Below, one piece after another: positions 10,527 to 30,418 of a DNA stretch of 64,000 bases. Numbering within the stretch: position 1 is the first letter of the stretch; the number at the start of each line of letters is the position of its first letter. The DNA comes from Oscillospiraceae bacterium (GTDB lineage Bacteria > Bacillota > Clostridia > Oscillospirales > Ruminococcaceae): NCBI GenBank assembly GCA_017828975.1, contig JAGAJN010000010.1, positions 1-64,000 on the forward strand. Direction: 5' to 3'. A program made the translations under genes and the position numbers. The notes beneath the pieces are model-generated. The model saw only the letters and a list, made by a program, of their open reading frames with translations. It was not told where the DNA came from and did not search any database.

Positions 10527-11798
10527 TTGAGTAACGAAAACAAGACCGGTAATGCGAAAAAGAAAAAAGATGAAGAAGATAAAAAGGAAAAGAAGATACA
10601 GCAGACGCTTTATCTGCTGGATTATATGCTCAAACATTCATCGGTAAATCACAAGATCTCCGCTGCCGAGCTTATGACTGCACTGCTGGACAGAGAGTTC
10701 CCGGAGGATACGAGCGGTAAGGTATATGACCCCCAAATGTTCAATGATAAGAAGTATGAGTCCAAAGTAAAAAGGTTTTTGGACGATCTTATCTATGGCG
10801 GTGTGAATATGCTGGGTATCAGGCTGATCGACTGCAAGTACGATGACCCTAAGGCATCATTTGAACGCAAGGATAAAAGATATTACGCCGAGGGACCTCT
10901 GACCGAGGAACAGGTAGCTATCCTCAGAGATGCTGTCTGCGTTTACCCGTATGCGGAGATGGGCAAGACACAGGAAATAGTTGATGCGCTGAATAAGCTG
11001 ACCACCGAATATAATCAGATGACGTATAACGCCGATCTTGTGGGGGCAAATAAGTATCCGGGCACATATTACGAGAATCTTCAAGAGATATATAAGGCGC
11101 TTTCTGCCACAGAATATGATGACCCAAAGGAAACTTCCCGCATTTCCATTCAGGAAGCACGAATGTCACGGGAGAAGTATCTCGCAGGCAGGTCAAAGAA
11201 GATAAGCAGAGTGAGCTTTGAATATTATGAGTATGCTTTCAACGAAAGTACACGTAAGATCGAGCTTTCCCCTAAGCTGCTCAAAAACGGCGGGATCGTC
11301 CGAACGGTAAATCCCCTGAAGCTGCTCTGGTCCAACGGATATTACTATCTTGTCACATATTACAAGGATAAAAACGGTAATTACAGATACCTGAATTACC
11401 GTGTTGACAGAATGAAAAATGTCAAGTGTACCTCCGAGCCTGCGGAGGAACTGACAGAGTCCAAGTATGTAAACGAATCGGGATTTAAGGTGTCGAAATA
11501 CAAGGGTGAAAATCCCGTTATGTATTCCTCCGATGAGGGCAGGACAGATGTTGTTCTGCGGTGCAAAAAGTATCTGCTCAACAATGTTCTGGACACCTTC
11601 GGATTTGAGGTCAAGATCACTGCTGCTCCGCCCGATGAGCTGGTGGTGAAGGTCAACCGTGCATCGCCCAAGGGCGTCATAATGTGGGCGCTGGAATACG
11701 GCGACGGCGCTGAGATAGTCGAGCCTGCTTCGCTGAGGGAAGAAATGAAGTCCGCCGCCGAAAAGCTTTTGAAAAGGTATAATACCAATAACCAATAA
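10527..11798 (+). CDS. WYL-domain transcriptional regulator
   Basis: 423 aa. A Lys/Glu-rich N-terminus of ~25 residues is followed by a probable winged helix (QQTLYLLDYMLKHSSVNHKISAAEL), then a WYL domain (NPLKLLWSNGYYYLVTYYK, then RYLNYRVDRMKNV) and a WCX-like C-terminus (EVKITAAPPDELVVKV to MWALEYGDGAEI). WYL proteins sense ligands or nucleic acid and often control defence or stress genes (family knowledge). The start is TTG at 10527 behind AAAGGGGT; no ATG fits. The final codons (RYNTNNQ, stop) are encoded by the terminal inverted repeat of a 100-bp element. It may regulate the flanking repeat-protein genes, which is inference. Confidence 0.88.
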   Translation: MSNENKTGNAKKKKDEEDKKEKKIQQTLYLLDYMLKHSSVNHKISAAELMTALLDREFPEDTSGKVYDPQMFNDKKYESKVKRFLDDLIYGGVNMLGIRLIDCKYDDPKASFERKDKRYYAEGPLTEEQVAILRDAVCVYPYAEMGKTQEIVDALNKLTTEYNQMTYNADLVGANKYPGTYYENLQEIYKALSATEYDDPKETSRISIQEARMSREKYLAGRSKKISRVSFEYYEYAFNESTRKIELSPKLLKNGGIVRTVNPLKLLWSNGYYYLVTYYKDKNGNYRYLNYRVDRMKNVKCTSEPAEELTESKYVNESGFKVSKYKGENPVMYSSDEGRTDVVLRCKKYLLNNVLDTFGFEVKITAAPPDELVVKVNRASPKGVIMWALEYGDGAEIVEPASLREEMKSAAEKLLKRYNTNNQ

Positions 11799-11982: not shown

Positions 11983-13326
11983 ATGACTGATTTTCTTAAG
12001 GCGGTCATCGATATAAAGAAATATACCGAATCGGGGGATAAGGAGGGGCTTTGCAGAAGTATTTCAATGAGCAGCGACAATTTTTACAGTGATATCGACA
12101 GTGTTCTGCACGTTCTGCTTATGAATATTATGACAGAACGCCCCGGGCTTCTGGAGGATAGTAATGTTTACAGGAACTGGACAGCTGCAATTCGTATGTC
12201 AGACAATTGCTTTTTCTCTGCGGGCAATGGTATGTCAATGATAAGAAGTGCGGCTCTGCGGGCTGTCATCTTCAAAGAAAAGAACTCAATGGATATACTG
12301 AAAAGGGCAGAGGAATGTTTTTTCGGCACATCGGGCAATCTGACTGCGAATACCATTTCCGAGGACAACGAAAAGGAGGTTTTCTGTAAGTCGGTCATAC
12401 TGGCTGCCGATTTGTTCGATAACTGTGAGGTGCTTGAATATGAGGCGTGTCATTATGCCGATGAGCCGAAAAAATTCTGCAATTACGATTCTGTGTGGCT
12501 GCTGGTAAGATGCTTGACGGACAGGGAGATGTATCCGCAGCTGGACAGGCTTTATAAGGACCTCTTTGATTCCGATTTCGGAAAGCTGATAGGCAGCTGC
12601 TATGTCTTTGAGCACTGGGATAAGGACAACGTCGGCTATATAAAAAGGCTGTATCGGAGATATGTTTCGGACGGCAGGATACTTGACGATGAAAATGAGC
12701 GTATATGCAGGCTTATTGAGGAGTACGGCACGGACTACATCAGATCATGCCTGATATTCAAAGGTATATGGAACAGTATGCTCAGCTCGATGTATCAGGC
12801 AAATATCCGTGAATTAAAGGTACTTACGGATATTGGATACAGGCTAAACGACCTGTCGGCAGTCATTCATTTTATTGATGAGGACGATGAGCTGTGTCGG
12901 GTCGTATTGGAAATGATAGGAGATTCACCCTTTGTTTATATTGAGGAAATGTTCAAGCTTCAATGCACAAACAAATGCTGCGACAGGATTCTTGACATAA
13001 AAAATATTTCTGTCAGCCTTGATAATCACAACGGCAGCAGGGACTCTGTCGAGCTTTTCTCGGATTACTTTACCGAAAGCAGAATGAAGAAGTTCCCGAA
13101 GAGTATGCCGCTTCGTCTGACCGATGATGTACGTGAAAATGACTGTCTTGATCGGGTCATCAAGGACAAAGCAACGGGCTTTGAATTTATCCTTAAAAGG
13201 ATAGATCTCACCGCAGAGCAGCTGACGGGGCTTGTGGATATGTGCATAAAATACAATAACCTAAAAGCCCTGAATATGGTCCGCAGAAAGCTGGACGAAA
13301 AGACACGGGAAAGGAGCGGAAAATAA
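11983..13326 (+). CDS. Uncharacterised helical-repeat protein, divergent family member
   Basis: 447 aa, acidic and rich in Asp/Glu, Leu, Tyr and Cys. No signal peptide is evident. I do not recognise a named domain. The architecture parallels the 9158, 13634 and 29081 proteins: a helical body, an ISVSLDNHNGSRDSV strand segment where the others have TVTLDDHNFLDF-like segments, then FILKRIDLTAEQLTGLVDMC, which matches the conserved C-terminal LLIxxGxIxxxN block. Identity is low, so membership is tentative. ATG 11983 has AAAGGCAGGGA upstream. The stop overlaps the ATG of the broken gene at 13326 (TAATG). Confidence 0.75.
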   Translation: MTDFLKAVIDIKKYTESGDKEGLCRSISMSSDNFYSDIDSVLHVLLMNIMTERPGLLEDSNVYRNWTAAIRMSDNCFFSAGNGMSMIRSAALRAVIFKEKNSMDILKRAEECFFGTSGNLTANTISEDNEKEVFCKSVILAADLFDNCEVLEYEACHYADEPKKFCNYDSVWLLVRCLTDREMYPQLDRLYKDLFDSDFGKLIGSCYVFEHWDKDNVGYIKRLYRRYVSDGRILDDENERICRLIEEYGTDYIRSCLIFKGIWNSMLSSMYQANIRELKVLTDIGYRLNDLSAVIHFIDEDDELCRVVLEMIGDSPFVYIEEMFKLQCTNKCCDRILDIKNISVSLDNHNGSRDSVELFSDYFTESRMKKFPKSMPLRLTDDVRENDCLDRVIKDKATGFEFILKRIDLTAEQLTGLVDMCIKYNNLKALNMVRRKLDEKTRERSGK

Positions 13327-13633: not shown

Positions 13634-14929
13634 ATGATCGGTTTGCCTATCGGTAACAGCGGAAAAACTCATTTCTGTGAATTTATCTGTCAGGACAGGG
13701 CGATAAGGGCGGCAATAGGCAGCTGTTCAGCCGATGAATTCAGGACGGCTCTGACCGATATGTATAATGAAGAGAAGGCTTTGAAGCAATATTGGGAAAC
13801 CTGTATCAGCGGCTGCGAATTGGAAGTCAGTCTGATACTGTCGATGCTATGCCGACACGACAAATTAAAGGCGTTTTATGAGGTGCAGAGAAGCTTCAAT
13901 ATTCCATCGGATACGCCTGTGCCTGCAAAGTATTCTCTGCTGGTGAGCTGTCTGAATAATGACGATGAATCGGCTGAATATGTTATCGGAAATGAACTTG
14001 ATCGCTCGGATTTTGATGAGGAGCAGTATCTTCTGAATCCCTTGTATTTTCTTATGATAACAGGGAAATACCGTCTGCTGGCTGCTGCTCTGGACAGGTG
14101 CCGTGAGATCTTCGGAAAAGGGCTGCATTTTGATACGGACGAATCGGATATGTTTATGAACAGGAAATTCCCCGAAAATAGTTTGTCATTTATCGCTGCA
14201 TCTGCGGCTTATTTCGGGGACGTGGATTTTCTGACCGTGCTGTTTGACAAAGGCTATCGCATAGACGAGGAGATCATAATTCAGCTTTATCCCGAGCCTG
14301 CGGCAATGGATCTTATTATGGGGAATTTTTACGATAAGATCGGTATGGATAAGCCTGTGGGCATCTATGAATTTATCAGAGAAAAATTCAGCACTAAGAA
14401 AAAACTGAGAATGGCATTGCAGATACGTCAGCTCTATGACAATAAAGCCTTTGAGCGTTTTCTCGAAGAAGTCAGTCCCATGAAAAAGATAAATGTTCTG
14501 GACGACTATACTATCATGATGTACAGCTCGTTTACCGATGAGGAAAGTTTTTTTCTGAATGATCTGGCGGAAAAGGAGCTTACCGTAACTTTGGACGATC
14601 ATAATTTTTTGGATTTCTACCAAATTGAGCGGATATTTACAGGTCACAGCATTACCTTTGATCTGTCATACTGCAATACCTACATTTTTAAAACGCTCAG
14701 CATTAAGCAGCTGAAGGATATCCTCATGAGAAATATTATTTTCAGTCAGTCGGACATCTGCGACATCATGCAGTCTATCCTTGACCGAAACAGCAAGCAG
14801 CTTACAAAGCTTCTTATCGGGCAAGGAATGATAAACAAGGATAACTGTGAGGAGGTGCTGGACTATGTGATCTCCAATAAGTGTCTAAATGCGCTTGCTG
14901 TGCTCAATAATTCAGAATTCTTTAAATAA
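13634..14929 (+). CDS. Uncharacterised helical-repeat protein, family member 2
   Basis: 431 aa, no signal peptide or membrane span. It is clearly related to the proteins at 9158 and 29081: NPLYFLMITGKYRLLAAALD, SLSFIAASAAYFGDVDFLTV (then LFDKGY), LTVTLDDHNFLDFYQIERIF, GHSITFDLSYCNTYIF and the terminal TKLLIGQGMINKDNCEEVLD. The middle block has ankyrin-like spacing (AAxxGDxxFLxxLFxxGY). ATG 13634 has AAAGGA 10 bases upstream. It is the third gene of the WYL-linked block on the plus strand, 40 bp after the pseudogene. No function is known to me; a scaffold or binding role is only an inference from the solenoid-like pattern. Confidence 0.85.
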   Translation: MIGLPIGNSGKTHFCEFICQDRAIRAAIGSCSADEFRTALTDMYNEEKALKQYWETCISGCELEVSLILSMLCRHDKLKAFYEVQRSFNIPSDTPVPAKYSLLVSCLNNDDESAEYVIGNELDRSDFDEEQYLLNPLYFLMITGKYRLLAAALDRCREIFGKGLHFDTDESDMFMNRKFPENSLSFIAASAAYFGDVDFLTVLFDKGYRIDEEIIIQLYPEPAAMDLIMGNFYDKIGMDKPVGIYEFIREKFSTKKKLRMALQIRQLYDNKAFERFLEEVSPMKKINVLDDYTIMMYSSFTDEESFFLNDLAEKELTVTLDDHNFLDFYQIERIFTGHSITFDLSYCNTYIFKTLSIKQLKDILMRNIIFSQSDICDIMQSILDRNSKQLTKLLIGQGMINKDNCEEVLDYVISNKCLNALAVLNNSEFFK

Positions 14930-15826: not shown

Positions 15827-17233
15827 TCAGTCCTTGTACTTTACCAGCTCGACCCAGTCGGGGACGAAGCAGTAATTGTCATAGCAGAACATGGGGTCAT
15901 TATCAACGGGAACGAAGAAGGTGGTGCGGTACTTGGGCTTTTGCTCGGGGAAGCTGCCCATTGCGTCGGAGAAGAAGAACAGCCCCTTCAGCTTTTTGCC
16001 GCGATTGCTTTTGGAGAATTCATCGGCGTATTTAAATACACACTCGAAGCTTGTGCCGCCCCAGCCCACACCCTTGTAATCACGGATAAATCTTTCGGCG
16101 TCCTTGCGGGAGCGTATGATCTTTTCGCTTGTTATCTGAGTGTCAAAGGTAACGACATGGATATTTACCGAGCTGCGGATATTCAGCTGCTCAAACAGCG
16201 TGTATATCTGCCGCAGAAAATTCACGGCAATATCGCCGCTGCATGAGCCTGACATATCTATGGCAATGATTATGTCTGATACGCTGCACTGCTCCCTTGT
16301 TTCGCTGAATTCGATGATAGGAGTGTCGTCCAGATTGTCCATGCCCCAGGTGTACATTATGATGTCAAAGGTGTCGGGGTCCTCGGACATTATCTCCTGA
16401 ACAGTAAACCGTTTCATATATTCAAGGTAGGACATTCTGCTGAATCTGTCGGGCTTTTTGATCTCGTCGAACATATTTCCGTGCGCTGAGCCGTACTGTG
16501 TGCTGCGGGCGGTTGCTTTCGCCTGAACGAGCATATTACTCCACATTTCCTCGTATTTGTCCTGCTGTGAACCGCCTGATACGGCATTTGCGTTCTGAGA
16601 ATTGCCGTCCTGTTGTGTGGCATTGCCGTTTTGGGACTCGCCGGAAACAGTGATTTCCATGTGTTCACCTGCCTGCTGACCTTGCTGAGGGACGTCCTTT
16701 CGCTTGGTGTACCACAAATTGTGGTCGTCCTCCTTCAGCTTTGAAACGATGGAGAACATTTTGTTGAACACTGCGGGGTCCGCCTCGGCTGCCTTAAACA
16801 GCTCGGAGGTGGAGGTCCCGCTGCAAAGCTTGAGAAAAGCGTCAAACTCCTTTTCGATAGCAGAGTTTGTCCGCAGAGCGTCGGCATTTTTCATCATACA
16901 GAATACGGACATATCCGCCGCAGCTTCAAATACCTTGTCATTTTCGGTAGTCATGGACGGGTGAAGATAGAGATTGTGCAGAACGGTGTGAATGATAGTG
17001 TTCTCCATCTTCTTCCCGTTTTTTGTGTACTTATCTATGAGCCACTTGGGGTTGTAATAGATATATTCATAGTCGGAGCAGATGCTTTCTATCTCGTCGG
17101 CAGGCTTGGTTTTCAGGGAATATATGGGCTTTGCCAGAAAGGGAAAGGAGACCGCAGCAGTCCTCATAGTGTGCCTGATGATCTGCTCGGAAAGCTCCTT
17201 TTCCTCGGCGGTCAATATCGTTTTTTCGTCCAT
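15827..17233 (-). CDS. VWA-domain protein with inactive metallopeptidase-like N-terminus
   Basis: 468 aa, partner of the MoxR ATPase. The N-terminal region (residues 1-180) matches the DUF2201 putative metallopeptidase type, but its expected HExxH reads HTVLH (82-86), so the catalytic Glu is absent. A Gln/Asn/Gly-rich linker (about 182-225) leads to a von Willebrand A domain (about 320-468) with an intact MIDAS start DMSGS (326-330), a WGGTSF segment and a LFFFSDAMG end. MoxR-VWA pairs act as metal-dependent chaperones that load cofactors or remodel complexes (family knowledge). The gene starts 20 bp behind moxR with CGGAGGTG as ribosome binding site, so they form an operon. Confidence 0.88.
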   Translation of the reverse strand: MDEKTILTAEEKELSEQIIRHTMRTAAVSFPFLAKPIYSLKTKPADEIESICSDYEYIYYNPKWLIDKYTKNGKKMENTIIHTVLHNLYLHPSMTTENDKVFEAAADMSVFCMMKNADALRTNSAIEKEFDAFLKLCSGTSTSELFKAAEADPAVFNKMFSIVSKLKEDDHNLWYTKRKDVPQQGQQAGEHMEITVSGESQNGNATQQDGNSQNANAVSGGSQQDKYEEMWSNMLVQAKATARSTQYGSAHGNMFDEIKKPDRFSRMSYLEYMKRFTVQEIMSEDPDTFDIIMYTWGMDNLDDTPIIEFSETREQCSVSDIIIAIDMSGSCSGDIAVNFLRQIYTLFEQLNIRSSVNIHVVTFDTQITSEKIIRSRKDAERFIRDYKGVGWGGTSFECVFKYADEFSKSNRGKKLKGLFFFSDAMGSFPEQKPKYRTTFFVPVDNDPMFCYDNYCFVPDWVELVKYKD

Positions 17234-17253: not shown

Positions 17254-18498
17254 TTATGAGGACTTGCGGGCAGCGGTTTTCTTGATCTTCTTTTTAATGG
17301 CAGATTCGGCTGTTGTAACGTCATCAAGGTATTTTCCGAAATGCTCGTTGTGGGTGATGATGGCAGCCTTTACAATGTCGCTGTCGGTGAGAATACTGCT
17401 CATGAACATTTCAATCTCGCCGTTGCTGCCGTACACTTTTTTGACGAAATCCGCAATGTTGTTCATCATTTCATTTACGGCGTTCAAATCTCCCGAAATA
17501 GCGCACTTGCGGAGTTTTCTCTTCATGCACTCGATAAGCATAAAGCGGATATTCACGCTGATGTTCGACAGCTTTTTGATAAGCTCCTTGTCCGCCTTGC
17601 CCCTTACGATAAGCTCTATTTCCTCCTCGGTAATGGTTTCCTTTACGAGGATATAGTAGTTGTAGAACTCATTTGCCGCGGCGGGGATACCAATAAACTG
17701 CGCAACAAGGTCGGCGGTCACGGGGAAATTGTTTCTCTCGTAGGCGTCGATGGTGATGCAAAGCTCCTCCCAGCCTCTCGGGGAAACGATACCGATGTTG
17801 TCCTCGTCAAAGGCGTAGATCTTGGAGGGGTCGGAAGTGATAAATGCGGTAACGATGGGGTTCAGCCCACGCTTTGCGGCATAGTCCAGCCACGCAACTC
17901 CGTCGGGGATAACGTTGATTATTCTCAGACGGTCACGGGTAACGGCGTCGAACTCCTTAACGCTCTTGTTGTACTCGGGGGGATTTCCCGCCATTACAAG
18001 TATCCAGCCGTCGGGTATCTTGCTCTGACCGAGAGTCTTGTTCTGGAAAAGCTGGAGCATAGGCGCTGCCAGAGTTTCCGATGCACAGTTCACCTCGTCG
18101 ATAAAGAGAATACCGTTTGCCTTGCCCGACTTTTCGATCTCGTCCCTTACCGAGGTAACGATTTCGCTGGCGGTGTATTCGGTGGTGGCTACCTCATTTC
18201 CGTTGTAGGTGCGGGTAACTATCTTGGGAAGTCCCAGGGCACTCTGTCTGGTGTGGTGGGTGATGGAGTAGGAAACGTAGCCTATGTCCAGCTTTTCGGC
18301 GGTCTGCTTGGGAATATCGGTCTTGCCGATGCCCGCAGGACCGATAAGCATTACGGGACGCTGTCTGTTTACGGGGATAGCGTAGTTTCCGCTGCTGTCC
18401 TTTTCAAGATATGTACGGCAGATGTTCTCCAGCCTTTCCGCTGCCTGTGCGATGGTGATAGAGTAGCTGTCCGTTTTGATTGCGATTGTTTTTTCCAT
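17254..18498 (-). CDS. MoxR-family AAA ATPase
   Basis: 414 aa. Walker A is GPAGIGKT, Walker B is ILFIDEVNCA and sensor I is VMAGNPPEYN; a C-terminal helical extension ends in a Lys-rich tail (KKKIKKTAARKSS). MoxR ATPases work with VWA proteins to mature or disassemble other complexes in the cytoplasm. ATG 18498 has GGAGGT 8 bases upstream. The frame is open 51 codons further, but that stretch lacks a ribosome binding site and lies in the promoter region. It is first in a two-gene operon with the VWA protein. The client is not evident; no enzyme gene is attached. Confidence 0.9.
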   Translation of the reverse strand: MEKTIAIKTDSYSITIAQAAERLENICRTYLEKDSSGNYAIPVNRQRPVMLIGPAGIGKTDIPKQTAEKLDIGYVSYSITHHTRQSALGLPKIVTRTYNGNEVATTEYTASEIVTSVRDEIEKSGKANGILFIDEVNCASETLAAPMLQLFQNKTLGQSKIPDGWILVMAGNPPEYNKSVKEFDAVTRDRLRIINVIPDGVAWLDYAAKRGLNPIVTAFITSDPSKIYAFDEDNIGIVSPRGWEELCITIDAYERNNFPVTADLVAQFIGIPAAANEFYNYYILVKETITEEEIELIVRGKADKELIKKLSNISVNIRFMLIECMKRKLRKCAISGDLNAVNEMMNNIADFVKKVYGSNGEIEMFMSSILTDSDIVKAAIITHNEHFGKYLDDVTTAESAIKKKIKKTAARKSS

Positions 18499-18603
18499 AG
18501 TGGATACCTCCGTTATTTTGTTTTGTATTTCCTTTACTGATGTTATTATAGCATGGGGGGGCGGAAAAAGTACTGCATTTTTGACGGGGAAAGAGGTTTT
18601 TTG

Positions 18604-18637
18604 TAATGTGGAAAGTGGAATTTTTAGTGTTGAATTA
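18604..18637. repeat. Heptamer repeat, left outer arm
   Basis: TAATGTGGAAAGTGGA (18604-18619) is a perfect inverted match to 19255-19270. GTGTTGAATTA follows. Both belong to the AACTTTC/CACTTTC 7-bp repeat family. Confidence 0.65.
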
Positions 18638-18729
18638 TCGGTATTTTGCAAACGAAATATTGTAGGGGCGTGGTTTCCCCAGCCGCAGTTGCGCTGAATT
18701 TTTTGGTTTTTTGCTTCCTCAGCAACATT
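18638..18729. other. Gene-free stretch with TTGTAGGGG repeat fragment
   Basis: This holds TTGTAGGGGCGTGGTTTCCC (18659-18678), a partial copy of the palindromic repeat at 7343. Nothing coding is supported. Confidence 0.5.
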
Positions 18730-19454: not shown

Positions 19455-22064
19455 ATGAAATTCAATGACTGGCTAAAAAATGACGACCTCTCCGCCAAGA
19501 TACTTATTTGTTCAGATGTGAAAAACGGCAGCCGTCTTATAAGAAAATGCAACAGTAACGGCATTTCCAGAGTAAACACCGAATGTAAGCAAATATCGGA
19601 TATTGCCCGTGAGATAATTATCGGCAATGCAGCCAAAAACGGCAAGCTTATTCCCTTTAAGCTGCTTGACAACAGCAGCTGTGCGGTAATTATCGACAGG
19701 CTTATACGGAACAATTCCGAAAAGCTGCCGTTTCTCAAAAAGGAAAGCATGTGTGCCGCAGCGTCCGCCGAGATAATGAGAATTATAAATGTTATCCGAA
19801 TGAACAGGGTCACCGAGCAGCTTATGAGCAGCGAGGAGGAAAACATTGCCTGCCTGAGAACGCTTATAACAATGTACCACAGCGAGCTTGCGTCAATGGG
19901 CGCATACGACTGCTACACCCTTATAAGGACAGCTTTGGACATTGCAGAGCCGTTTGCGGGCGTAAGCTTCGGGCTTGCGGAGGGAACGCAGCTTACCGAT
20001 ATTGAGCTGGTGCTTCTTGAAAAAATATCAGGCGAAGGCTATGAGATGATCGAGCTTTACCGTAAGGAGAGCCTTATAAAGCCGACATTTTTTGCGGGCA
20101 GAGGATATACAAACGAGATAAGATATATCTCAGAAAGCATTAAGGACAAGCCCTTCGGAGAGGTCAATATTTTCTTCACCTCCGAGGCTTACGGCAGCTT
20201 TATCAAGGCGGGGCTGGGCAGCATGAAGATACCTTACACGCTTTCGTCCTCCTATCCCGCTTCGGAAACGGACATTGTCAGCTTTATGATATGTCTGCTC
20301 AAATGGGCGGAAAACGGTTTCCTCCACTCCGAGCTGGAGAATGCTTTCATCAACCCGAAAATGACTGTACCCGCAAAGCTTTATTATAACAGCGCATCGG
20401 ATATTATGTGGGGCATCGGCGGCTATGACTTTTACTGCAAAAGGTTCAGAGCAGAGCACCCCGACGACGCCGAGAACGACGAAAAATATCCGCTGATACT
20501 TTTCTATGAAGCCCTTGTAAAGACGTTCTCAGAGCGTTCTCCCGTAAAGCTTTTTGAACAGCTTACAAAGATCGCAGGCGAATTTACCTACAAGAAAAAT
20601 CCCGAAAGAAAGCTTGTCATGCCTGCTTTGAAGGACGAGGCTGAACAGCTTTCCTTTATGGGCGATGATGTCGTTCCCGAAAACGAGGTGCTGCGTTTCC
20701 TGATCGACAGGCTGGAGCATATGACCGTCAGTGAAGCTGCCAAGACCGATGCTGTAAATGTAAGCATAATCGGCAGCGGCGTTGTAAGCGAAAGAAAGTA
20801 TAACTACATCTGCGGACTTTCCGTCAGCGACCTTTCGCCCAAGGTGACCGAGTCCCCCGTAATGTCCGACGAACAGCTGCTTAAATATGTCAAAAACAAG
20901 GCTAACAGCGAAACCTCCGAAAACAGGAGCAAAAAGATATACAGTGACCTTGAATTCCTTATCCGCTCCATTCTTGCGGATAAGGACAGCGAGCTTTATC
21001 TCGGTTACAGCAGCTATGACCTGTCAAGGCTGACCGAATGTCCGCCTTCCGTATTCTACAAAAAGCTGTGTGCGGAGTTCGGCGTCGCAGATGTGGCTTC
21101 TCTCGGCTATGACAATATCATTCTCGGGAACATCAGGCTGCCGTACGGCAAAAAGTGGGTGTCCCTTCCAAAGCCGTCTGCGGACACTGCCGATAAAACG
21201 CAGTCCGCAATAAAATGCAGTCCCACAATGATAGATACGGCAATGGGCTGCCCCAGGAAGTTTTTCTTCCGTTATAAGCTTCAAATGTGGAATCCCGAGT
21301 TTGCGGAGTTCAGCGGCAGCAGGTGGCTTACTCCCGTTGAAAAAGGAAATCTTTTCCATACTGCTGCCTGCGAATATGCGGAGCGTGTCTTAAAGGACAC
21401 CGCCCCCGCCGATGTTTCCGTTACAGCGGACGAAAAGATTCTTACCGAGATATTTGAAAGGGTAGTAAACGGTTACCAAAAGCCTTGTGAGAATCCCGAG
21501 ATACTCAGGCTTGAAACGGAGGAACTGAAAACTGCGCTTTTCGGCTATTTCAATGACCTCCACAAAAATCTGCACGACGGCAATAAGTGGATAGTCAGCG
21601 AGTGCGAAGGGGAATTTTCCGACGGCGTATATACGCTGCATTATGTTGACCCCGCCGATACCCAAAATCCCAACAAGACCCTTGACCTTACCTTTGAAGG
21701 CAGAGTTGACAGAATAGACCGATACACTGACACGGCTTCGGGTGAAGAGCATATCAGAGTGATAGACTACAAGACCACTTCAAGCTTCTTTGACGAAAAG
21801 GAACACAGCCAGCACGTCCTGTACACGGCTGCACTGAACAAGGGAAACGGTACGGTAGATGAATTTACTTACGAAACGCCTTTCCTTGAAGAAAAAAGCA
21901 CAGAATGTAAGGGCGCCGGCATTGCCGATTTCAGCGGCGAGGTGAAGGAGAAAATTACCGATGTCCTTGTCAGAAACAATTACAAATACAGCGGAAAAGC
22001 TTCGTCCTGCGATTATTGCGGATATGCAGACATCTGTTTCAGAAAAACAAGGGAGGATATGTGA
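19455..22064 (+). CDS. AddB-like PD-(D/E)XK nuclease subunit
   Basis: 869 aa. The C-terminal nuclease domain shows GRVDRID, VIDYKTT and a YTAAL segment. Cys residues at GCPRKFFFRY and CDYCGYADIC fit the four-Cys iron-sulfur staple of AddB. AddB proteins trim DNA ends with AddA in double-strand break repair. Here the N-terminus lacks the GRAGSGKS P-loop of classical AddB, and the protein is ~280 aa shorter. ATG 19455 has TTTGGAGG upstream. Its stop directly abuts the ATG of the helicase gene. Either a reduced AddB or a related accessory exonuclease fits. Confidence 0.8.
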   Translation: MKFNDWLKNDDLSAKILICSDVKNGSRLIRKCNSNGISRVNTECKQISDIAREIIIGNAAKNGKLIPFKLLDNSSCAVIIDRLIRNNSEKLPFLKKESMCAAASAEIMRIINVIRMNRVTEQLMSSEEENIACLRTLITMYHSELASMGAYDCYTLIRTALDIAEPFAGVSFGLAEGTQLTDIELVLLEKISGEGYEMIELYRKESLIKPTFFAGRGYTNEIRYISESIKDKPFGEVNIFFTSEAYGSFIKAGLGSMKIPYTLSSSYPASETDIVSFMICLLKWAENGFLHSELENAFINPKMTVPAKLYYNSASDIMWGIGGYDFYCKRFRAEHPDDAENDEKYPLILFYEALVKTFSERSPVKLFEQLTKIAGEFTYKKNPERKLVMPALKDEAEQLSFMGDDVVPENEVLRFLIDRLEHMTVSEAAKTDAVNVSIIGSGVVSERKYNYICGLSVSDLSPKVTESPVMSDEQLLKYVKNKANSETSENRSKKIYSDLEFLIRSILADKDSELYLGYSSYDLSRLTECPPSVFYKKLCAEFGVADVASLGYDNIILGNIRLPYGKKWVSLPKPSADTADKTQSAIKCSPTMIDTAMGCPRKFFFRYKLQMWNPEFAEFSGSRWLTPVEKGNLFHTAACEYAERVLKDTAPADVSVTADEKILTEIFERVVNGYQKPCENPEILRLETEELKTALFGYFNDLHKNLHDGNKWIVSECEGEFSDGVYTLHYVDPADTQNPNKTLDLTFEGRVDRIDRYTDTASGEEHIRVIDYKTTSSFFDEKEHSQHVLYTAALNKGNGTVDEFTYETPFLEEKSTECKGAGIADFSGEVKEKITDVLVRNNYKYSGKASSCDYCGYADICFRKTREDM

Positions 22065-25000
22065 ATGGCTGCAATGACCGAAAAAGAGAAGAGAGATCAT
22101 ATTATCACAAGCATAAAGGAGAATATGTTTGTCGAGGCGGGCGCAGGTGCGGGAAAAACCACGCTTATAGTCAACCGTATCGTTGAGCAGATAAGCCACG
22201 GTATCCGTCCTAAGGAGATAGCTGCCATTACCTATACCAATAAGGCAGCCGAGGAGCTGAGGACCCGTATACAGACAAGCCTTATCAAAGAAGCAAAGGG
22301 CAATAAGGAAATATCCGCCGTGCTTGACGAGGTGGATTCCATGCCTATTTCCACCATACATTCCTTCTGCCTGAATATCCTCAGAGAGCACGCTTTTGAG
22401 GCGGGTATCCGTCCCGATGCGGAGGTGTATGAGGAGGGGCGGCTGAAAGCGGAAATGCAGATGTTCTTCCGCAGATATTTCAAAAACATTTCCCCCAAGC
22501 AGATAGCCCTGATGAAATATTACAAAATAGCCGCCGAGCCGAGTTATCATAACAATGATAATCCGCTGTACAAATTGTTCCATGATATATGCGAGCTGCC
22601 GCCCAATGCTGCGGTGCCTTATGACAAGACAGCTGCGGATAATCTGACCGAGGACTCGGCTGAGATCAAAAAGCAGTTTGATGCTGCCGCCGCCGAGATA
22701 ATTTCGCTCTACAACCGTGAGTTTAATAAGAGTATCAGCCGGCTTTCGGATATCAAGGATATATTGTATTCAAAATTAACCGATAACTCTGTCGAATTGT
22801 TAATGAAGCTCAAAGAAATTGCAGACAGAAAAGGCGTTTTTACCCAAAGACCGCCCAAGGGCAGCCTGACCAATAAGGCTAAGGCTTTGGAGCTGAACGA
22901 TAAATACATGAAATGGTTTGAGAAAAATGCAGGGAAATTTCTCGCAGAAAGAGAACTGCGCATAAGCAATTTTATGACTTCTGTTGCATATCCCGCAAGC
23001 TCGGAATTCCGCAGACGTGAGCGGAGCAATCTTATCACAAACAATGAGCTTATCAGGATAACAGAGGAGCTTATCCGCACAAATAAGACGGTAAGAGAGC
23101 ATTATGCCGCAAAACTCAAGTGCATTTACGTTGACGAATTTCAGGACACCGACTATTTCCAGGCAAGCCTTATCTGGCAGCTTGCCTATGACGATGAAAA
23201 AAAGGCTCTCCGTGACGGCGCACTGTTTATTGTGGGCGACCCCAAGCAGTCCATTTACAGATTTACAGGCGCAGACCCGCAGGTGTATCACGATATAAAG
23301 AGCAAGCCCGAGCTTAAAGGTCATATCTATGTCCTTGACAGCAATTTCCGTTCAAGCCCCAAGATAATTGATTGGGTAAATTCCAAGTTCAGCGACAACG
23401 GGACATTCAGAAAGAACGGCTTTGCATACAGCAATATGGCGGTGGGAGTGCCGCTGCTGACCGCTTCAAAGGACACCGTTTTAGAGGGCGTTTATTACTG
23501 CAAGACCTATTCAAAAGGCAAGGTTTCCAAGACCGCTGAGCTTACCATCGCCGCCGAGGACACAGCTAAGCTTATTGACGAGCTTGTCAATAAGCAGATA
23601 AAGATACCGAACAGACGCAAGACCGAGAATTGCAGGGACGACTACCGTCTCGTGGAATACGGCGATTTCCTTATCCTGTTTTCAAAAAACAAGCATATCC
23701 CCGTCTATGCAGACGCACTCAGAAGCCGCAATATCCCCGTAAGCATTGCGGGACAGGTGCCGCTTAACAGCTCTGCGGCGGTAAAGAGATTTTTGCTGCT
23801 CTATAATTACTGCGTAAGGGCGTCCAAGCAGCCCCTGGACAAGGGTGCGGTCCAGCTGACGTTTGAAAATGCCGACAATATCACCGACGAAATGACAGCC
23901 TTTGGCATGGAAACCATCAAGGCTGTCAGAGAACGCACAAAGGGCATGAAGGACGGCTTTGCTGTCGCCCTTTTCCTCATAAGGAATATACAATACTATC
24001 TCCCCGCAGACACCGATCTTACCGCCGACACAACGCTCCGTATCGCTGAAAGCCTGGAGCAGCTTCTTTCGGATATGCTTTTAAAATGCAGAGGAAATCG
24101 TATTGAAGCGGCGGATATGTTTGCGCAGACTATCAAAAAGGGCTTTGAAAAAAATATGCCCCTTGTTAGGGACAACAGCTCTGTGCGGCTTATGACCGCT
24201 CATAAGGCAAAGGGGCTGGAGGGCAGCATAGTTATCTGGGCAAACAGGTCCACCGATGTCCGCGAGGATAAGAGCTACCGCAAATACGGCAATCCCGTTA
24301 CATATTATGCCAATGTAAACATTAACAGCACCTTGAAGGACGAACGGGAAAAGCTTGATATTGCCGAAAGGACACGTCTTGAATATGTTATTGCTACCCG
24401 TGCAAAGGAAGCCTTCATAGTTATGGACAGGCTGGTCGATGATAATGGGCTGCTGAACGATTACGGCATAGACAAATGTCCCGACGTAAAGGATGTTATC
24501 TCGAAGGTGACAGCCTCCGCTCCCGCAAATACGGTGACCTTCCCCGAATACACCCCCGACATCAGCGAGCAGACCTATTCCGACGAACAGCTTGACACAA
24601 GCTTTGTAACTCTCAATCCCAGCGGATTTGACAACTACAATGCCGTTATCTCCGACGATGCCGACGAACCCGATGAGCCTGAGATAATCTCCGCACAGGC
24701 AGATGCAGAACGTCCCAAGGGAGCCGTTTTCGGAACTGCGCTGCACAGGTGCTATGAGCTTCTGGTAAATGAATGGAAGCTGAATTTTGATATGACGGGC
24801 GATGAAATGAAGGAGCTTATCCGCAAATGCGTTTACACGGCAATCATGGAGGCAGGCATGACCGTCAGCTTTGATGAAGCGTCGGGGTTTGACGAGGAGC
24901 TTACAAGGGTAATGAACTGGTTTGTAAATGAGAAGTCCTTTACGGAGATACTCAGGGATTCCGCCGAAATATTTACGGAGCTTCCCTTCTCATATTTTAT

Positions 25001-25337
25001 CGGCGCAGAGGAAGCCGCCGAAATGCTTGAAGAGCTTTCAAAGTACAAGCAGAACCTTAACGTCAGCGGAAAGAAGATCTGGGTAAACGGCGTTTCCGAT
25101 CTGGTCGTAAAGGGAAAGGACGGCAGCATTACCGTTATTGACTATAAATCCGACATTGACAAGCAGAGAAAGCCCGAAAAATTCTATGACCGTCTAAAGG
25201 CAAGATATGAGGGACAGCTTACCCTTTACCGCTATGCTATGGGAAAAATATTCGGTGTCAGCCCCGATTCGGTCAAAACCTTGCTCTGCAATATTGACGC
25301 AGGCTCTCCTTTGGTAAATGTGGAGAGCGGAAAGTGA
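22065..25337 (+). CDS. AddA-like UvrD-family helicase-nuclease
   Basis: 1090 aa superfamily 1A helicase fused to a C-terminal nuclease. Motif I is EAGAGAGKTTL (about 24-34), then ITYTNKAAEEL, VDEFQDTD, VGDPKQSIYRFTGA, RLMTAHKAKGLE and YVIATRAKEA. The C-terminal PD-(D/E)XK domain has GTALHRCYELL, GVSDLVV and VIDYKSD and ends with YEGQLTLYRYA. All key helicase and nuclease residues appear present. It would unwind and degrade DNA ends and hand the product to RecA, or degrade foreign DNA. ATG 22065 follows the AddB-like stop with no gap. It is smaller than Bacillus AddA (~1230 aa). Confidence 0.9.
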   Translation: MAAMTEKEKRDHIITSIKENMFVEAGAGAGKTTLIVNRIVEQISHGIRPKEIAAITYTNKAAEELRTRIQTSLIKEAKGNKEISAVLDEVDSMPISTIHSFCLNILREHAFEAGIRPDAEVYEEGRLKAEMQMFFRRYFKNISPKQIALMKYYKIAAEPSYHNNDNPLYKLFHDICELPPNAAVPYDKTAADNLTEDSAEIKKQFDAAAAEIISLYNREFNKSISRLSDIKDILYSKLTDNSVELLMKLKEIADRKGVFTQRPPKGSLTNKAKALELNDKYMKWFEKNAGKFLAERELRISNFMTSVAYPASSEFRRRERSNLITNNELIRITEELIRTNKTVREHYAAKLKCIYVDEFQDTDYFQASLIWQLAYDDEKKALRDGALFIVGDPKQSIYRFTGADPQVYHDIKSKPELKGHIYVLDSNFRSSPKIIDWVNSKFSDNGTFRKNGFAYSNMAVGVPLLTASKDTVLEGVYYCKTYSKGKVSKTAELTIAAEDTAKLIDELVNKQIKIPNRRKTENCRDDYRLVEYGDFLILFSKNKHIPVYADALRSRNIPVSIAGQVPLNSSAAVKRFLLLYNYCVRASKQPLDKGAVQLTFENADNITDEMTAFGMETIKAVRERTKGMKDGFAVALFLIRNIQYYLPADTDLTADTTLRIAESLEQLLSDMLLKCRGNRIEAADMFAQTIKKGFEKNMPLVRDNSSVRLMTAHKAKGLEGSIVIWANRSTDVREDKSYRKYGNPVTYYANVNINSTLKDEREKLDIAERTRLEYVIATRAKEAFIVMDRLVDDNGLLNDYGIDKCPDVKDVISKVTASAPANTVTFPEYTPDISEQTYSDEQLDTSFVTLNPSGFDNYNAVISDDADEPDEPEIISAQADAERPKGAVFGTALHRCYELLVNEWKLNFDMTGDEMKELIRKCVYTAIMEAGMTVSFDEASGFDEELTRVMNWFVNEKSFTEILRDSAEIFTELPFSYFIGAEEAAEMLEELSKYKQNLNVSGKKIWVNGVSDLVVKGKDGSITVIDYKSDIDKQRKPEKFYDRLKARYEGQLTLYRYAMGKIFGVSPDSVKTLLCNIDAGSPLVNVESGK

Positions 25338-26180: not shown

Positions 26181-26540
26181 TCAGAAGGGAAGCTCGTAAT
26201 CGTCCGACTGTGAAAGATCGATCTCAAATTCTTCAAATTCTTCAACATATTCTTCGTCGGGGTATTCTTCGATAATTTTCTCCTCGGGGTCATCGCCGAG
26301 ATCCTCTTCGACATAATCGGAATCGTCGTCCTCGTCAACATATTCTATGTCATCTTCATCGAAATCATCTTCGTCCGTATAAATGCCTAAATCGTCCTCG
26401 TCGTTATCGGAATTTTCACTGAGAATTTCATCAACGCCTTTATAAAAACCATCTTCCGAATCGCATAGCTCCTCTCCGCACTTGTAACAGATCTCGCTGC
26501 TCTCGGAATTTACTGCGCCGCATACCTTGCAATCTTTCAT
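26181..26540 (-). CDS. Acidic zinc-ribbon protein in the clpP operon
   Basis: 119 aa. The N-terminus is a zinc ribbon (CKVCGAVNSESSEICYKCG, residues 4-22). The remainder is an extremely acidic, low-complexity tail of Asp, Glu, Tyr and Ser with almost no basic residue, ending SQSDDYELPF. It is probably disordered. It is last in a minus-strand operon, 22 bp behind the AAA ATPase gene, with AGGAGG upstream. The layout suggests an adaptor or regulator for that ATPase. That is inference; no family is recognised beyond the ribbon. Confidence 0.75.
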   Translation of the reverse strand: MKDCKVCGAVNSESSEICYKCGEELCDSEDGFYKGVDEILSENSDNDEDDLGIYTDEDDFDEDDIEYVDEDDDSDYVEEDLGDDPEEKIIEEYPDEEYVEEFEEFEIDLSQSDDYELPF

Positions 26541-26562
26541 TGTTTTGTCCTCCTAAATTTAC

Positions 26563-28248
26563 TTAAAATCCTATACAGCCCATGCTTTGGCTGCTTTTCA
26601 GCTCGGAGCTGAGAATATCCTCTGCCGCTGCGGAGATGTCCTCTGAGTCAAGCTGAGTGAGCATCTTTTTGGTCTTGGTCTTGAAACCGCCTATTCTCAG
26701 GGCGTGATGCTGCTTGGCGTTGATGTAGAGATTGCGTGCTTCTCTGCCGTTTCCGAACTGCTCACCTCTTTTCTCCCGGAGCCTTTTGAAAAAGCTTATG
26801 ACCGACGCTTCCGAATCGGCAGGTATCTTGTAATTATCCGCCTCGGCAATGCGGGAGAAAATGTCGCAGAGGACATCGTCCGAATATCCGCTGAATCTTA
26901 CAATAAAGCTGATACGTGACCTCAGACCCGGATTTGAGCCGAGAAAATCGTTCATCTTGTCCTCATAGCCCGCAAATATGCAGAATACGCAGCTGCGGTA
27001 ATTCTCCATATTCTGGACGATACAGGTGACCGCCTCCTTGTCGAAAATGGTAGCGTTGTCCTCGGCAATTGTGTATATCTCGTCAAAGAAGAGAACTCCG
27101 CCGCCCTTCTCGGACATTTCGGCAAACATCTCATCTATCTTTGCAGCGGTGTGACCTACATACTGTCCCACATAATCGGACTTGCAGCACTCCTTGAAGC
27201 AGGAGGGGTCCTTGATTATCCGCAGCTCTGCAAGCTCCTCGGCAAAGCGTCTGGCAAGGGTGGTCTTGGCTGTGCCGGGAGGTCCCGCAAAAACCATACT
27301 GCACCCCGAAAAGCTGTCCGAAAGCCGCTTTTCATATCTCAGCTTGTCAATGCTTATGGAGCGGATAATGCCGTTTATCTTCTCTGTTTCCTTTTCCAGC
27401 CCCACCAGAGCCGCCTTTTTTGATAACTGCTTCACGGGACGGAGAGAAAACAGCTCTGCGATACCTCTGAAATCCTCGGGTAAAAGCTGCCTGTCGTCGG
27501 GGTCGTTGAAAAGGTGATTGCTGATAATCTGTCGTGCTGCGGCGGTGACTGCATACTCGTCACGTCCCTTCAGCTGCTTTACAAGGAGGGCGATCTCCCT
27601 TTGGGTGTTGTCGCACTCGAAATCTCTTTCCCAGAAATAGGAGCAGACGATGTTTTCAACGTCAACAGCCTTTGAATTCTCAATGACCATGCAGCGCAGG
27701 CAGCTGCCCAGCATTCCGATAATATCGTCCGATGCGCCGCTTGACAGTCTTCCGTCGGGGGCATAGTAGATGAAAAACTCTACCCTGTTGTTAAGAAGCA
27801 TTTCGCTGTCTGCAATAGCGGGGGACAGGGCCGGAACAATATGTATAACGGGATTGTTGTCGTTGGAGATAAGGGCGTTCAGGTCGGGGTCATTCATTCC
27901 CGCAGTAAGGTTTATGGCAACTGCGGTGTTGCTCTCGGGTCTGTCCGAATCGGCGTCCTCGAAAAGAATTGCCTCTCCCGTTTCCTCGGTCTTGGAGGCA
28001 ATGCTGTAATAAAGGGCAAGGACGGCTATGTAGGCGTCGTTGATATTGTCTGCTGCGATGAAATACTTGTTGGTGCTGTTTGAAAAATCGTCGCAGTCTA
28101 TTCTGTCAAGCTTTCTCAGAAGCTCTGTTACCTTGATAAAGCGTTCAAGGGAATAGACGGCTTCGCAGATAACATCTTCGCTGAAATCGGAGGGCATAAG
28201 GTAATGCTTCCTTCCGAAGCTGTGCTTTTCGATTATTGGGATACTCAT
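26563..28248 (-). CDS. CbxX/SpoVK-type AAA ATPase ending in Ile-Gly-Phe
   Basis: 561 aa. Residues 1-270 form an unrecognised alpha/beta domain. The AAA domain (about 275-530) has Walker A GPPGTAKTT (322-330; Ala replaces the usual Gly before Lys), DYVGQYVGHTAAKIDEMF, Walker B GVLFFDEIYTI and NPGLRSRI, the pattern of CbxX/SpoVK/EccA ATPases. The protein ends SQSMGCIGF. Ile-Gly-Phe is the signature with which ClpX and ClpA loops dock on ClpP, and clpP is the gene just upstream (47 bp). ATG 28248 has AAAGGAGG upstream; a longer frame would run into clpP. It is predicted to unfold substrates for this ClpP, which is inference. Confidence 0.85.
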   Translation of the reverse strand: MSIPIIEKHSFGRKHYLMPSDFSEDVICEAVYSLERFIKVTELLRKLDRIDCDDFSNSTNKYFIAADNINDAYIAVLALYYSIASKTEETGEAILFEDADSDRPESNTAVAINLTAGMNDPDLNALISNDNNPVIHIVPALSPAIADSEMLLNNRVEFFIYYAPDGRLSSGASDDIIGMLGSCLRCMVIENSKAVDVENIVCSYFWERDFECDNTQREIALLVKQLKGRDEYAVTAAARQIISNHLFNDPDDRQLLPEDFRGIAELFSLRPVKQLSKKAALVGLEKETEKINGIIRSISIDKLRYEKRLSDSFSGCSMVFAGPPGTAKTTLARRFAEELAELRIIKDPSCFKECCKSDYVGQYVGHTAAKIDEMFAEMSEKGGGVLFFDEIYTIAEDNATIFDKEAVTCIVQNMENYRSCVFCIFAGYEDKMNDFLGSNPGLRSRISFIVRFSGYSDDVLCDIFSRIAEADNYKIPADSEASVISFFKRLREKRGEQFGNGREARNLYINAKQHHALRIGGFKTKTKKMLTQLDSEDISAAAEDILSSELKSSQSMGCIGF

Positions 28249-28295
28249 GATTTGTTCCTCCTTTGATATACTGTGCTTTTCCTTTGCCGCTCGGC

Positions 28296-28889
28296 TTACT
28301 TGACCTCTGCGCTGCTGATTATCCTGTCGCAGAGTCCGTATGCAACCGATTCTTCTGCGGTGAGATAATGGTCTCTTTCGCAGTCGCTGTGGACCTTTTC
28401 TATGGGCTGTCCCGAGGCTTCCGAGAGAATACCCTCCAGCAGCTCTCTTGTTCTGAGCATGTGGTCGGAATGTATCCTTATGTCTGAGCACTGTCCGTCA
28501 AGTCCGCCCGATATAAGGGGCTGATGGATAAGCACCTCGGAGTGGGGGAGTATCAGCCTTTTTCCCTTTGTCCCCGATGCAAGGAGAACCGAACCCATAG
28601 ATGCCGCCATACCGACGCAGATGGTCGAGATGTCGCAGGGAATGTACTTCATGGTGTCCACAATAGCAAGACCGTCCGTGACCGAGCCGCCGGGGCTGTT
28701 GATATACAGCGAAATATCTCTGCGGGGGTCCTTGGCGGCGAGGAAAAGCAGCTGCGCCGTAATTATTCCCGCCGAACCGTTTTCAAGAGGTCCGTTCACA
28801 AAGATTATCCTGTCGTCCAGAAGACGTGAGTAAATGTCCATGCAGCGTTCGCCGTGTCCTGTTTGTTCGATAACATAAGGTATCATCAT
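28296..28889 (-). CDS. clpP: ClpP-type serine protease
   Basis: 197 aa, the usual size. The catalytic triad is intact: Ser97 in GMAASMG, His122 in IHQP and Asp173 in CERDHYL. The fold motifs YINSPGGSV and ISTICVGMAASMGS are present. ClpP forms double heptamer rings and degrades proteins fed by AAA ATPases. ClpX is not adjacent. Instead a CbxX/SpoVK-like AAA gene follows after 47 bp and then a zinc-ribbon gene, so this may be a second, specialised ClpP. The ATG pair at 28889 has AAGGAA upstream. It is more divergent than housekeeping ClpP near the C-terminus (AYGLCDRIISSAEVK). Confidence 0.93.
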   Translation of the reverse strand: MMIPYVIEQTGHGERCMDIYSRLLDDRIIFVNGPLENGSAGIITAQLLFLAAKDPRRDISLYINSPGGSVTDGLAIVDTMKYIPCDISTICVGMAASMGSVLLASGTKGKRLILPHSEVLIHQPLISGGLDGQCSDIRIHSDHMLRTRELLEGILSEASGQPIEKVHSDCERDHYLTAEESVAYGLCDRIISSAEVK

Positions 28890-29034
28890 ATTTTTTCCTT
28901 CTTTCGTTTGATGTGAGCCGTTGTTTACATCATAACATACCTTACGGAAAAAAATACTGCAAAAATACAGCGCTTTAAATTTTTTTCTCTGCTATAATAA
29001 AGATAGTTTCGGGAAACCGTTCCCTTACAATATG

Positions 29035-29080: not shown

Positions 29081-30418
29081 ATGAAAAGAATAAAACCGAC
29101 AATGCAGCACGTATCGCAAAAGCGTGTCTATGCCGACTATGCAGATGCCGACAAATTGATGAGATATGCTTTTGACAGCAATATAAAAGCAAGCCGCTTC
29201 GGAAGACTGCTGGAGATCATGAGAAAAAGAGATTCCTTTGAACAGCCGAATTATCCTTTGCTTATAGGTGCGCTTACCGCTATGGGTGATACAGAAAAGC
29301 TTCGGGTGATTATGGATAATTACAATTACAGCGGGATACACCCATATTATTCATTCGTAAACCTCAGAGATATTACCCGTGAAGCCTTGGTCGTATCTAT
29401 GATATTGGGAAAAACGGCTGCTTGCGGACGGCTGCTCTCGGAATATTTGAATGATGGTTTTTCAATCGCTCCTGTCCATATGGGAGGTGATCGGTGTTCG
29501 CCGGAATTCAGACCGCTGTATTATACTATGCTGACAAAGCAGTATGACCTTGCTGCTGTCTATATGGACCTTCTGAGAAAGAAATTAAGCAATTGCTGGT
29601 GTGAAGAGGCAGCGGAAGAAGATATGCACGCTGATGTTGACCTTACCTTCATTTCCGCCTTGCTTTATGATGAGCGGGAGTTTGTCAAGGTCATGCTTGA
29701 CGGGGGCTATCGTCCCGGAAGTTATGTTTTTTCCGAGCTGGCAGCATATCCCGAAGCATTTGACGGCTATCGGAAAAAATACTTCTCCTATTATTTCCCG
29801 AAACGGAAACGCCCGCCTAAGCAGCAGGAATTTCTCAGCCGCCTTCTGACGGGAAATGAGCGATACAGATTTGCCTATCTGGTTTACGACAAATTCGGTA
29901 CGGAAAATGCCGACAGATTTTTTGAGAGTATAGATTTTCCGAAAATAACCGCTGTTTCTTCCTCAATGCTTCTGATAAACAGAATGCGCGGTTTCAATCT
30001 TTCAGGCGAACAGCCTTTAGATGAGAAATGCCTTATGAAGCATATGGACGATCGGCTGTATATTATCGGTGATATGACAAATGTGGTGGAAATGACAGAG
30101 GAGAATGCCTGCGTTTTTGAGGGGAAAGAGATAATTTACGATATAAGAGGCTATGAGGATCAGCTGGATCTCGTCTTTCCGAGCAATATCACAAACAAGA
30201 TGCTAAAGCAGTTTCTGAAGCAAAGGCTGCTGTTTGACACGGACGATAAATGCTCGTCATTCCTTCAGTCTGTCCTTGAGCGCAACGACAGGACGCTGAC
30301 CGTTCTTGCCGTGAAACAGGGTTTGATAACACGGGAAAATTTCCCCGACGTTATAGAATTTCTTTCGGAAAATCGCTTTCTTATTGCGCTTAACGAAATA
30401 TATAAGTCCGATATTTAG
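29081..30418 (+). CDS. Uncharacterised helical-repeat protein, family member 3
   Basis: 445 aa, basic N-terminus, no signal peptide. Related along its length to the proteins at 9158 and 13634: PLYYTMLTKQYDLAAVYMDL, LTFISALLYDEREFVKVMLD (then GGY), FEGKEIIYDIRGYEDQLDLV, then FLQSVLERNDRTLTVLAVKQ and GLITRENF near the end. It stands alone, 14 kb from the other copies, with a poor ribosome binding site (CAGGTGA) and heptamer repeats in its leader. No known domain can be named. The repeated family presence argues for a real, diversifying protein family. Confidence 0.83.
   Translation: MKRIKPTMQHVSQKRVYADYADADKLMRYAFDSNIKASRFGRLLEIMRKRDSFEQPNYPLLIGALTAMGDTEKLRVIMDNYNYSGIHPYYSFVNLRDITREALVVSMILGKTAACGRLLSEYLNDGFSIAPVHMGGDRCSPEFRPLYYTMLTKQYDLAAVYMDLLRKKLSNCWCEEAAEEDMHADVDLTFISALLYDEREFVKVMLDGGYRPGSYVFSELAAYPEAFDGYRKKYFSYYFPKRKRPPKQQEFLSRLLTGNERYRFAYLVYDKFGTENADRFFESIDFPKITAVSSSMLLINRMRGFNLSGEQPLDEKCLMKHMDDRLYIIGDMTNVVEMTEENACVFEGKEIIYDIRGYEDQLDLVFPSNITNKMLKQFLKQRLLFDTDDKCSSFLQSVLERNDRTLTVLAVKQGLITRENFPDVIEFLSENRFLIALNEIYKSDI

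Follow-up and report, generated by a model that had tools for sequence, protein, structure and literature searches.

Probable ClpP partners and the operon in the window

Proteasomal ATPases such as Rpt, PAN and Mpa dock to their peptidase by C-terminal tails, and ClpP is usually regarded as the partner of Hsp100 unfoldases. ClpX, ClpA and ClpC are described as docking ClpP via flexible loops, in which an (L/I/V)-G-(F/L) tripeptide enters hydrophobic pockets, a site that acyldepsipeptides also occupy (PMC8745299, in the sections cited here). LGF loops for ClpP docking also figure in the relevant sections of a second account, which proposes, likewise from bioinformatic analysis, further unfoldases with and without LGF, the ClpI proteins of Actinomycetota (PMC10149685). 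Here we describe a stretch of 64,000 nucleotides from an Oscillospiraceae bacterium (the window; positions 1 to 64,000 of contig JAGAJN010000010.1, assembly GCA_017828975.1), in which a clpP paralogue, a CbxX-type AAA+ ATPase ending in Ile-Gly-Phe and an acidic zinc-ribbon protein lie one after the other. The features of this operon (lengths in amino acids, aa) are as follows:

28296..28889, minus strand: clpP paralogue, 197 aa, with a CLP_protease domain and a Ser-His-Asp triad
26563..28248, minus strand: CbxX-type AAA+ ATPase, 561 aa, with the AAA+ module at about residues 278-554 (Pfam, NCBIfam and fold)
26566..26574, minus strand: proposed ClpP-docking tail Ile-Gly-Phe, residues 559-561, the final three ATPase codons
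26181..26540, minus strand: acidic zinc-ribbon protein, 119 aa, C-terminus YELPF (translation of the open reading frame; all Pfam zinc-ribbon models below their cut-offs)

We observe directly the gene order, a tail that is both conserved and variable among related ATPases, clpP linked to such ATPases in several lineages, and intact triads in the linked ClpPs. The tailed ATPases are probably unfoldases that partner ClpP, docking on it by the C-terminal tail and using either a linked or a housekeeping ClpP, and this appears to be the most likely of the readings weighed below. A preliminary description of this DNA had proposed an unfoldase-protease-adaptor module of three genes; its main idea is of the right kind and applies more widely than was supposed, and its interpretation is partly supported overall. 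The unit is the tailed CbxX ATPase, mostly alone and sometimes with an extra ClpP, not the trio.

With ClpX, ClpA and ClpC, the window ATPase shares the pore-loop aromatic of a predicted AAA+ ring, a hydrophobic-Gly-Phe tripeptide and, as proposed, ClpP as partner, but it belongs to a different AAA family and carries the docking motif at its C-terminus, whereas theirs lies in an internal loop. Tail docking to a peptidase, as proposed here, would recall Rpt, PAN and Mpa, although the peptidase would be ClpP, the motif is xGF and the AAA family is another. ClpI differs as well, being an Hsp100 with an internal loop and not of CbxX type (PMC10149685, same sections). CbbX, SpoVK and EccA share the AAA plus AAA_lid_6 module, CbbX being the best match in the PDB, whereas the window ATPase lies below their NCBIfam cut-offs and has ~277 extra N-terminal residues; the SpoVK-like proteins examined, unlike it, lack the tail.

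The three genes are co-directional on the minus strand with gaps of 47 and 22 bp, as recomputed, and both ATPase sequences noted earlier, the C-terminus MGCIGF and the Walker A GPPGTAKT, were read again in the translation. We placed the ATPase start at the ATG at 28248 (stop codon 26563-26565), because it is preceded by a AAAGGAGGA ribosome site and because the ATPases of the two closest loci (L035 and L036, below) begin with the same MSIP; it was preferred on these grounds to a 642-aa frame in the open reading frame listing that starts at a GTG inside clpP. Pfam returned CLP_protease at 236 bits for ClpP and AAA and AAA_lid_6 at 58.6 and 45.4 bits for the ATPase, which these two domains and a CbbX-like fold assign to the CbxX-type AAA+ superfamily. 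Its best NCBIfam models were spore_V_K (179 bits, cut-off 422.95), CbbX (162, 459.25) and EccA (146, 466.65), and orthology to SpoVK, CbbX or EccA was rejected given scores under all three equivalog cut-offs. That it is neither ClpX nor ClpA, as first claimed, agrees with 14 of the 370.75 bits required for clpX and 18.1 of the 993.15 for ClpA; no ClpC model stood among the NCBIfam matches listed.

The window ClpP is intact, as was thought. It scores below the TIGR00493 (clpP) equivalog cut-off (262 of 308.6 bits) and passes that of the broader PRK00277 subfamily (284.7 bits, cut-off 249). The host genome (G000, 2.57 Mb) contains four ClpP-family loci, with G000:C4 scoring highest and the window copy second; the former is the housekeeping copy and the latter a paralogue. 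The zinc-ribbon protein is possibly an adaptor.

The C-terminal tail across the ATPase family

We defined the tail as [ILVMFY]-G-[FL] within five residues of the C-terminus, and searched with profile A4 in 394 genomes of the order and with A5 in 391 of the class and 398 of the phylum (sets partly overlapping), tails being read in the retrieved loci and not in every row of these searches. Of the 191 frames obtained, 134 ATPases with distinct C-terminal stretches (last 200 residues) were kept; frames cut by contig ends or shorter than 150 aa were excluded. The tail is present in 63 of these 134 distinct complete CbxX-type ATPases and absent from 71, against 26 of 1793 other frames of at least 150 aa from the same DNA, spurious frames included. 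By variant, 49 have IGF, five VGF, three LGF, two each FGF and YGF, and one each MGF and FGL, so that xGF occurs in 62 of 63 (the FGL is at L067); from the rate of xGF inside the proteins, 0.6% would be expected. These variants lie close to the (L/I/V)-G-(F/L) tripeptide of ClpP-docking loops (PMC8745299). Lys and Arg are frequent immediately before the motif; matches of the first search at ~30% identity end in KKRIGF or KARIGF, and two early matches with GNPGTAKT end in IGF plus two residues. In a 19-row alignment, in which L036 shares 63% identity with the window protein and 17 rows share 20-29%, Gly is conserved in 19 and Phe in 18, while the residues preceding the tail do not align. Given that the tail is kept at 90% and 63% identity amid changing neighbours and recurs in 63 of 134 ATPases, it is beyond chance, and the comparison supports, family-wide, the early suggestion of a ClpP-docking-like terminal IGF. 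The Ala in Walker A, which had been singled out as a special mark, is common (31/63 tailed ATPases) and was dropped as a distinguishing feature. Elsewhere in the window, an unrelated 238-aa protein (43885-44601) also ends in KIGF; a tail can arise by chance.

In a tree of the AAA+ domain, from which the tail was excluded (except in 3 of the 63 tailed proteins, with one to four tail residues inside the domain), clade one comprises 33 tailed ATPases and the untailed L101, which ends in CGFIL (support 0.93), and clade two comprises 28 tailed ATPases (support 0.80). Tailed L221 and L220 lie outside both, and L221 groups with 64 untailed proteins that resemble SpoVK or EccA. Since clade one joins the untailed set (support 0.82), the tail was either ancestral and then lost, or gained more than once.

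AlphaFold, run on a 25-row alignment, predicted the AAA+ module (278-554) at high confidence, with predicted local distance difference test (pLDDT) values below 50 for residues 555-561 and for all but one of residues 1-277; a three-row alignment had given a mean pLDDT of 33. The four top PDB matches of the model are CbbX chains, and the prediction shows a CbbX-like AAA+ module followed by a disordered end. The match of profile A5 to CbbX spans positions 348-616 of 637 and stops before the tail; the N-terminal region and the tail are thus additions to a CbbX core. A pore-loop motif, [YF][VI]G, is found in 58 of 63 tailed ATPases. Within the window ATPase the docking motif is matched only by VGL at 282 and by IGF at 559, with no internal xGF, and an internal-loop docking motif was not found in its AAA+ module.

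The window protein had no match in viral contigs. With A5 at least 37 viral-contig loci were found, and one of the 34 frames matching the profile is tailed (L265:3413-5938, ending in VIGFAK, on IMGVR_UViG_3300021431_000076, a 332-kb contig classed as viral). A second tailed CbxX ATPase, ending in HIGFNR, lies at L331:2225-4408 in MT838628.1, a human faecal 'Bacteriophage sp.' and the one read of 11 phage records. No clpP match occurred in the viral-contig loci listed; if these two contigs are truly phage, phages may borrow host ClpP. A search of 198 plasmid records gave one relative that was read, from Virgibacillus (L330), without the tail.

clpP beside tailed ATPases and the readings weighed

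Of the 63 tailed ATPases, 7 have a clpP within 8 kb, and of the 71 untailed ones none does (541 and 240 kb of flank read, respectively), as searched with a profile derived from six of these seven linked ClpPs. Beyond the window, a pairing of tailed ATPase and clpP was found in the following loci of other lineages:

L067 (G032): clpP directly upstream of the tailed ATPase
L126 (G179): clpP near the tailed ATPase, with one YbjN-type gene between
L133 (G198): clpP 6.6 kb from the tailed ATPase
L134 (G385): clpP 0.26 kb from the tailed ATPase, on the opposite strand
L209 (G756) and L210 (G542): clpP directly downstream of the tailed ATPase, on the same strand

Linked clpP occurs in both tailed clades. 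The window was given and L067 was retrieved for the proximity of ATPase and clpP, while the other five loci were retrieved for the ATPase. By Fisher's test P is 0.004 for 7/63 against 0/71, and 0.019 for 5/61 against 0/71; in a simple model with a ClpP density of 0.91 per Mb, worked out by hand from 12 genomes with linked copies excluded, 0.49 linked clpP would be expected where five were observed (P 0.00016). Three further loci hold divergent clpP genes beside type IV secretion system (T4SS) coupling-type genes (L072:5266-7674, L073:3287-5463 and L074:1383-5230; confirmed by Pfam at L072 and L074, by eye at L073), and were not counted as linkage given this conjugation context.

Ser, His and Asp occupy the aligned catalytic places in all seven linked ClpPs, and a stop within the L133 match is the natural gene end. 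At eight places taken to form the hydrophobic pocket, the window ClpP reads SYYIVLLI and the housekeeping ClpP of the same genome SYYIMMLI. In the ClpP tree, 39 housekeeping-type copies group with that of E. coli (support 0.0), and the window, L067, L133 and L134 copies fall outside (support 0.81-0.82). The L126, L209 and L210 ClpPs are 85-89% identical in hosts from three families, which hints at transfer; G580 holds one of the L126 type (L302) unlinked to its tailed ATPase. The genomes G000, G032, G198 and G385 each encode another ClpP that scores better than the linked one, in G179 (77% complete) the linked ClpP is the sole strong match, and G542 has three ClpP matches at E < 1e-60. A class-wide profile scan gave mostly single ClpPs per genome, and two or more were found in 3 of 10 hand-picked tailed genomes against 8 of 281 others (P 0.004; 0.03 without the window genome), a weak test given counts sorted by hand and tails unread in the 281. 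Separately, a ClpP-like frame from 4613 in L077 (G078:C9) aligns Gly-Asn-Lys with the catalytic Ser-His-Asp of other copies and is perhaps inactive.

Among 100 genomes including the host's own, full-length matches to the ATPase occur only in that genome and in G001. A scan of genome contigs with the window ATPase gave two loci, L035 (uncultured Ruminococcus) and L036 (uncultured Clostridia bacterium). The L035 ATPase, from a sister species, is 90% identical and ends in SIGF, and its zinc-ribbon neighbour (11709-11915) has 68 aa against 119 in the window and ends in NELPF; clpP does not adjoin it, and tblastn gave no credible remnant (best chance-level matches at E of 2 or more). One upstream sequence is common to both:

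28932..28947, minus strand: sequence also present in the sister species; it precedes the ATPase start by 699 bp in the window and by 232 bp in L035, which lacks the clpP

The L036 ATPase (63% identity) ends in TIGF, with neither clpP nor the zinc-ribbon gene adjoining it. IGF is thus constant among the three ATPases while the preceding residues vary. The zinc-ribbon gene had no match beyond the window and L035 among the neighbourhood loci scanned, and the trio, breaking up in both relatives, was rejected as a conserved module. Homologues without clpP and without IGF, which the preliminary description thought would tell against it, do exist as the 71 untailed SpoVK/EccA-like ATPases, whereas relatives within the tailed clades keep the tail without clpP.

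Under ClpP docking, we infer a hexamer that would receive substrates either through the divergent N-terminal part or from an adaptor, for which the zinc-ribbon protein is a candidate, and whose YVG-type pore loop would pull them through the pore and feed them to ClpP for degradation. Six flexible C-terminal tails would place their hydrophobic-Gly-Phe ends in the hydrophobic pockets of the ClpP ring, doing the job of the internal loop in ClpX, ClpA and ClpC. In the window the likely partner would be the operon's own ClpP; relatives without a linked clpP would use a housekeeping or unlinked one.

Several points weigh against this. Only 7 of the 63 tailed ATPases have a linked clpP, two of these linkages (the window and L067) are not blind, and the five blind ones merge into two related groups (P 0.09). 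Profiles A4 and A5 derive from tailed proteins, so that searches with them lean towards tailed ATPases. The closest relative (L035) retains the tail with clpP missing beside its ATPase. The third of the pocket places is His, Arg or Gln in the other six linked ClpPs but mostly Tyr or Phe in housekeeping copies, and the L126, L209 and L210 copies are not separated from housekeeping ClpP (node support 0.0). Finally, linear peptides with IGF were poor ClpP binders in previous work (PMC8745299, in the sections cited), although a hexamer would offer six tails.

The alternative that survives best, though we consider it unlikely, is that the tail binds another partner, such as MoxR/VWA proteins, the ATPase being a CbbX-like remodeller without a protease, the motif convergent and the linkage incidental. 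It would accommodate the 56 of 63 tailed ATPases with no clpP within 8 kb of the flank read, the MoxR and VWA genes near several of them and the best structural match to CbbX; yet clade two lacks MoxR/VWA in the scanned loci while bearing the same tail, with three members linked to clpP (L126, L209, L210), and clpP is near none of the 71 untailed ATPases. It is less probable still that the window ClpP lies beside the ATPase by chance and acts mainly as part of rings mixed with the housekeeping copy, serving ClpX or ClpC. The sister species fits that picture, having kept the other parts without the operon clpP, but ATPase and clpP are also neighbours in L067, L126, L134, L209 and L210 (6.6 kb apart in L133), and mixed rings would still permit the ATPase to dock. 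That the tail, short, hydrophobic and terminal as it is, should act as a degron, marking the ATPase for removal by ClpXP or some other protease, seems very improbable, given that C-terminal degrons depend on the exact protein end, whereas the motif is terminal in 31 of 63 and followed by one to four residues in 32 of 63, a spacing that fits a docking motif better.

Wider neighbourhood and implications

Of a gene neighbourhood that recurs near tailed ATPases, the window holds the following:

29081..30418, plus strand: 445-aa protein without a Pfam match, adjoining the ATPase also in L035 and L036 (467 aa there)
19455..25337, plus strand: PDDEXK_1 gene and UvrD plus PDDEXK_1 gene (Pfam), AddB-like and AddA-like, between the VWA/MoxR pair and the operon
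17254..18651, minus strand: MoxR-like AAA protein (AAA_5; Pfam), wider cluster
15827..17233, minus strand: DUF2201/VWA-type protein (Pfam), wider cluster
10527..11798, plus strand: WYL/WCX-domain regulator (Pfam), ~15 kb from the ATPase

In the loci scanned, WYL genes lie near 13 tailed ATPases (window, L036, L128, L130, L133, L134, L137, L141, L142, L206, L216, L217 and L225). MoxR and VWA genes, ~8 kb from the window operon, recur near other tailed ATPases (L035, L036, L131, L133, L134, L215 and L217), and AddAB-type genes in L035, L067 (weak), L133 and L225 as well as in the window. In L133, which belongs to another family, much of the window set recurs (WYL, ATPase, AddB, AddA, clpP, VWA and MoxR). 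No WYL, MoxR/VWA or AddAB was found near clade-two tailed ATPases in the loci scanned, a set that did not include the L259 neighbourhood. MoxR and vWA neighbours, found here with one tailed clade, also characterise the MoxR-vWA conflict systems, where they cluster with a third component; a term search of the survey of these systems (eLife 2020, PMC7159879) gave no SpoVK, CbbX, EccA or DUF2201.

More tentatively, and with somewhat less than even odds in our judgement, these ATPases may represent a further AAA+ protease architecture, in which CbxX unfoldases docked by xGF tails drive ClpP, the tail having been kept or gained in two clades, repeatedly with an extra ClpP, and one clade being wired into a WYL, MoxR-vWA and AddAB-type cluster with a possible role in stress or phage defence. 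A known defence system was rejected, PADLOC returning none and matching only IetA/TRIP13 (AAA), WYL, a weak Cas3c and a weak DolB. The preliminary description called the module undescribed, and our searches concur: no paper combining ClpP with CbxX was found, nor was C-terminal-tail docking of ClpP by CbxX ATPases described in the titles and abstracts listed, most subscription journals and bioRxiv preprints lying outside these searches. If true, this would be an overlooked class of regulated proteases in Clostridia, where the tailed AAA+ family is widespread; the effects of IGF-mimicking compounds would reach beyond ClpX and ClpC systems, and looking for the tail would be a one-line sequence test by which other AAA+ families could be screened for ClpP partners.

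In L131, where VWA and MoxR accompany the tailed ATPase, the gene immediately after it (L131:4463-5788) encodes a second AAA protein, which PADLOC matches to an IetA-like model at 64 bits. Four window proteins of 422-447 aa, spread through the cluster, have no Pfam match (9158-10426, 11983-13326, 13634-14929 and 29081-30418); they align with one another at 16-25% identity and possibly form one repeat-protein family.

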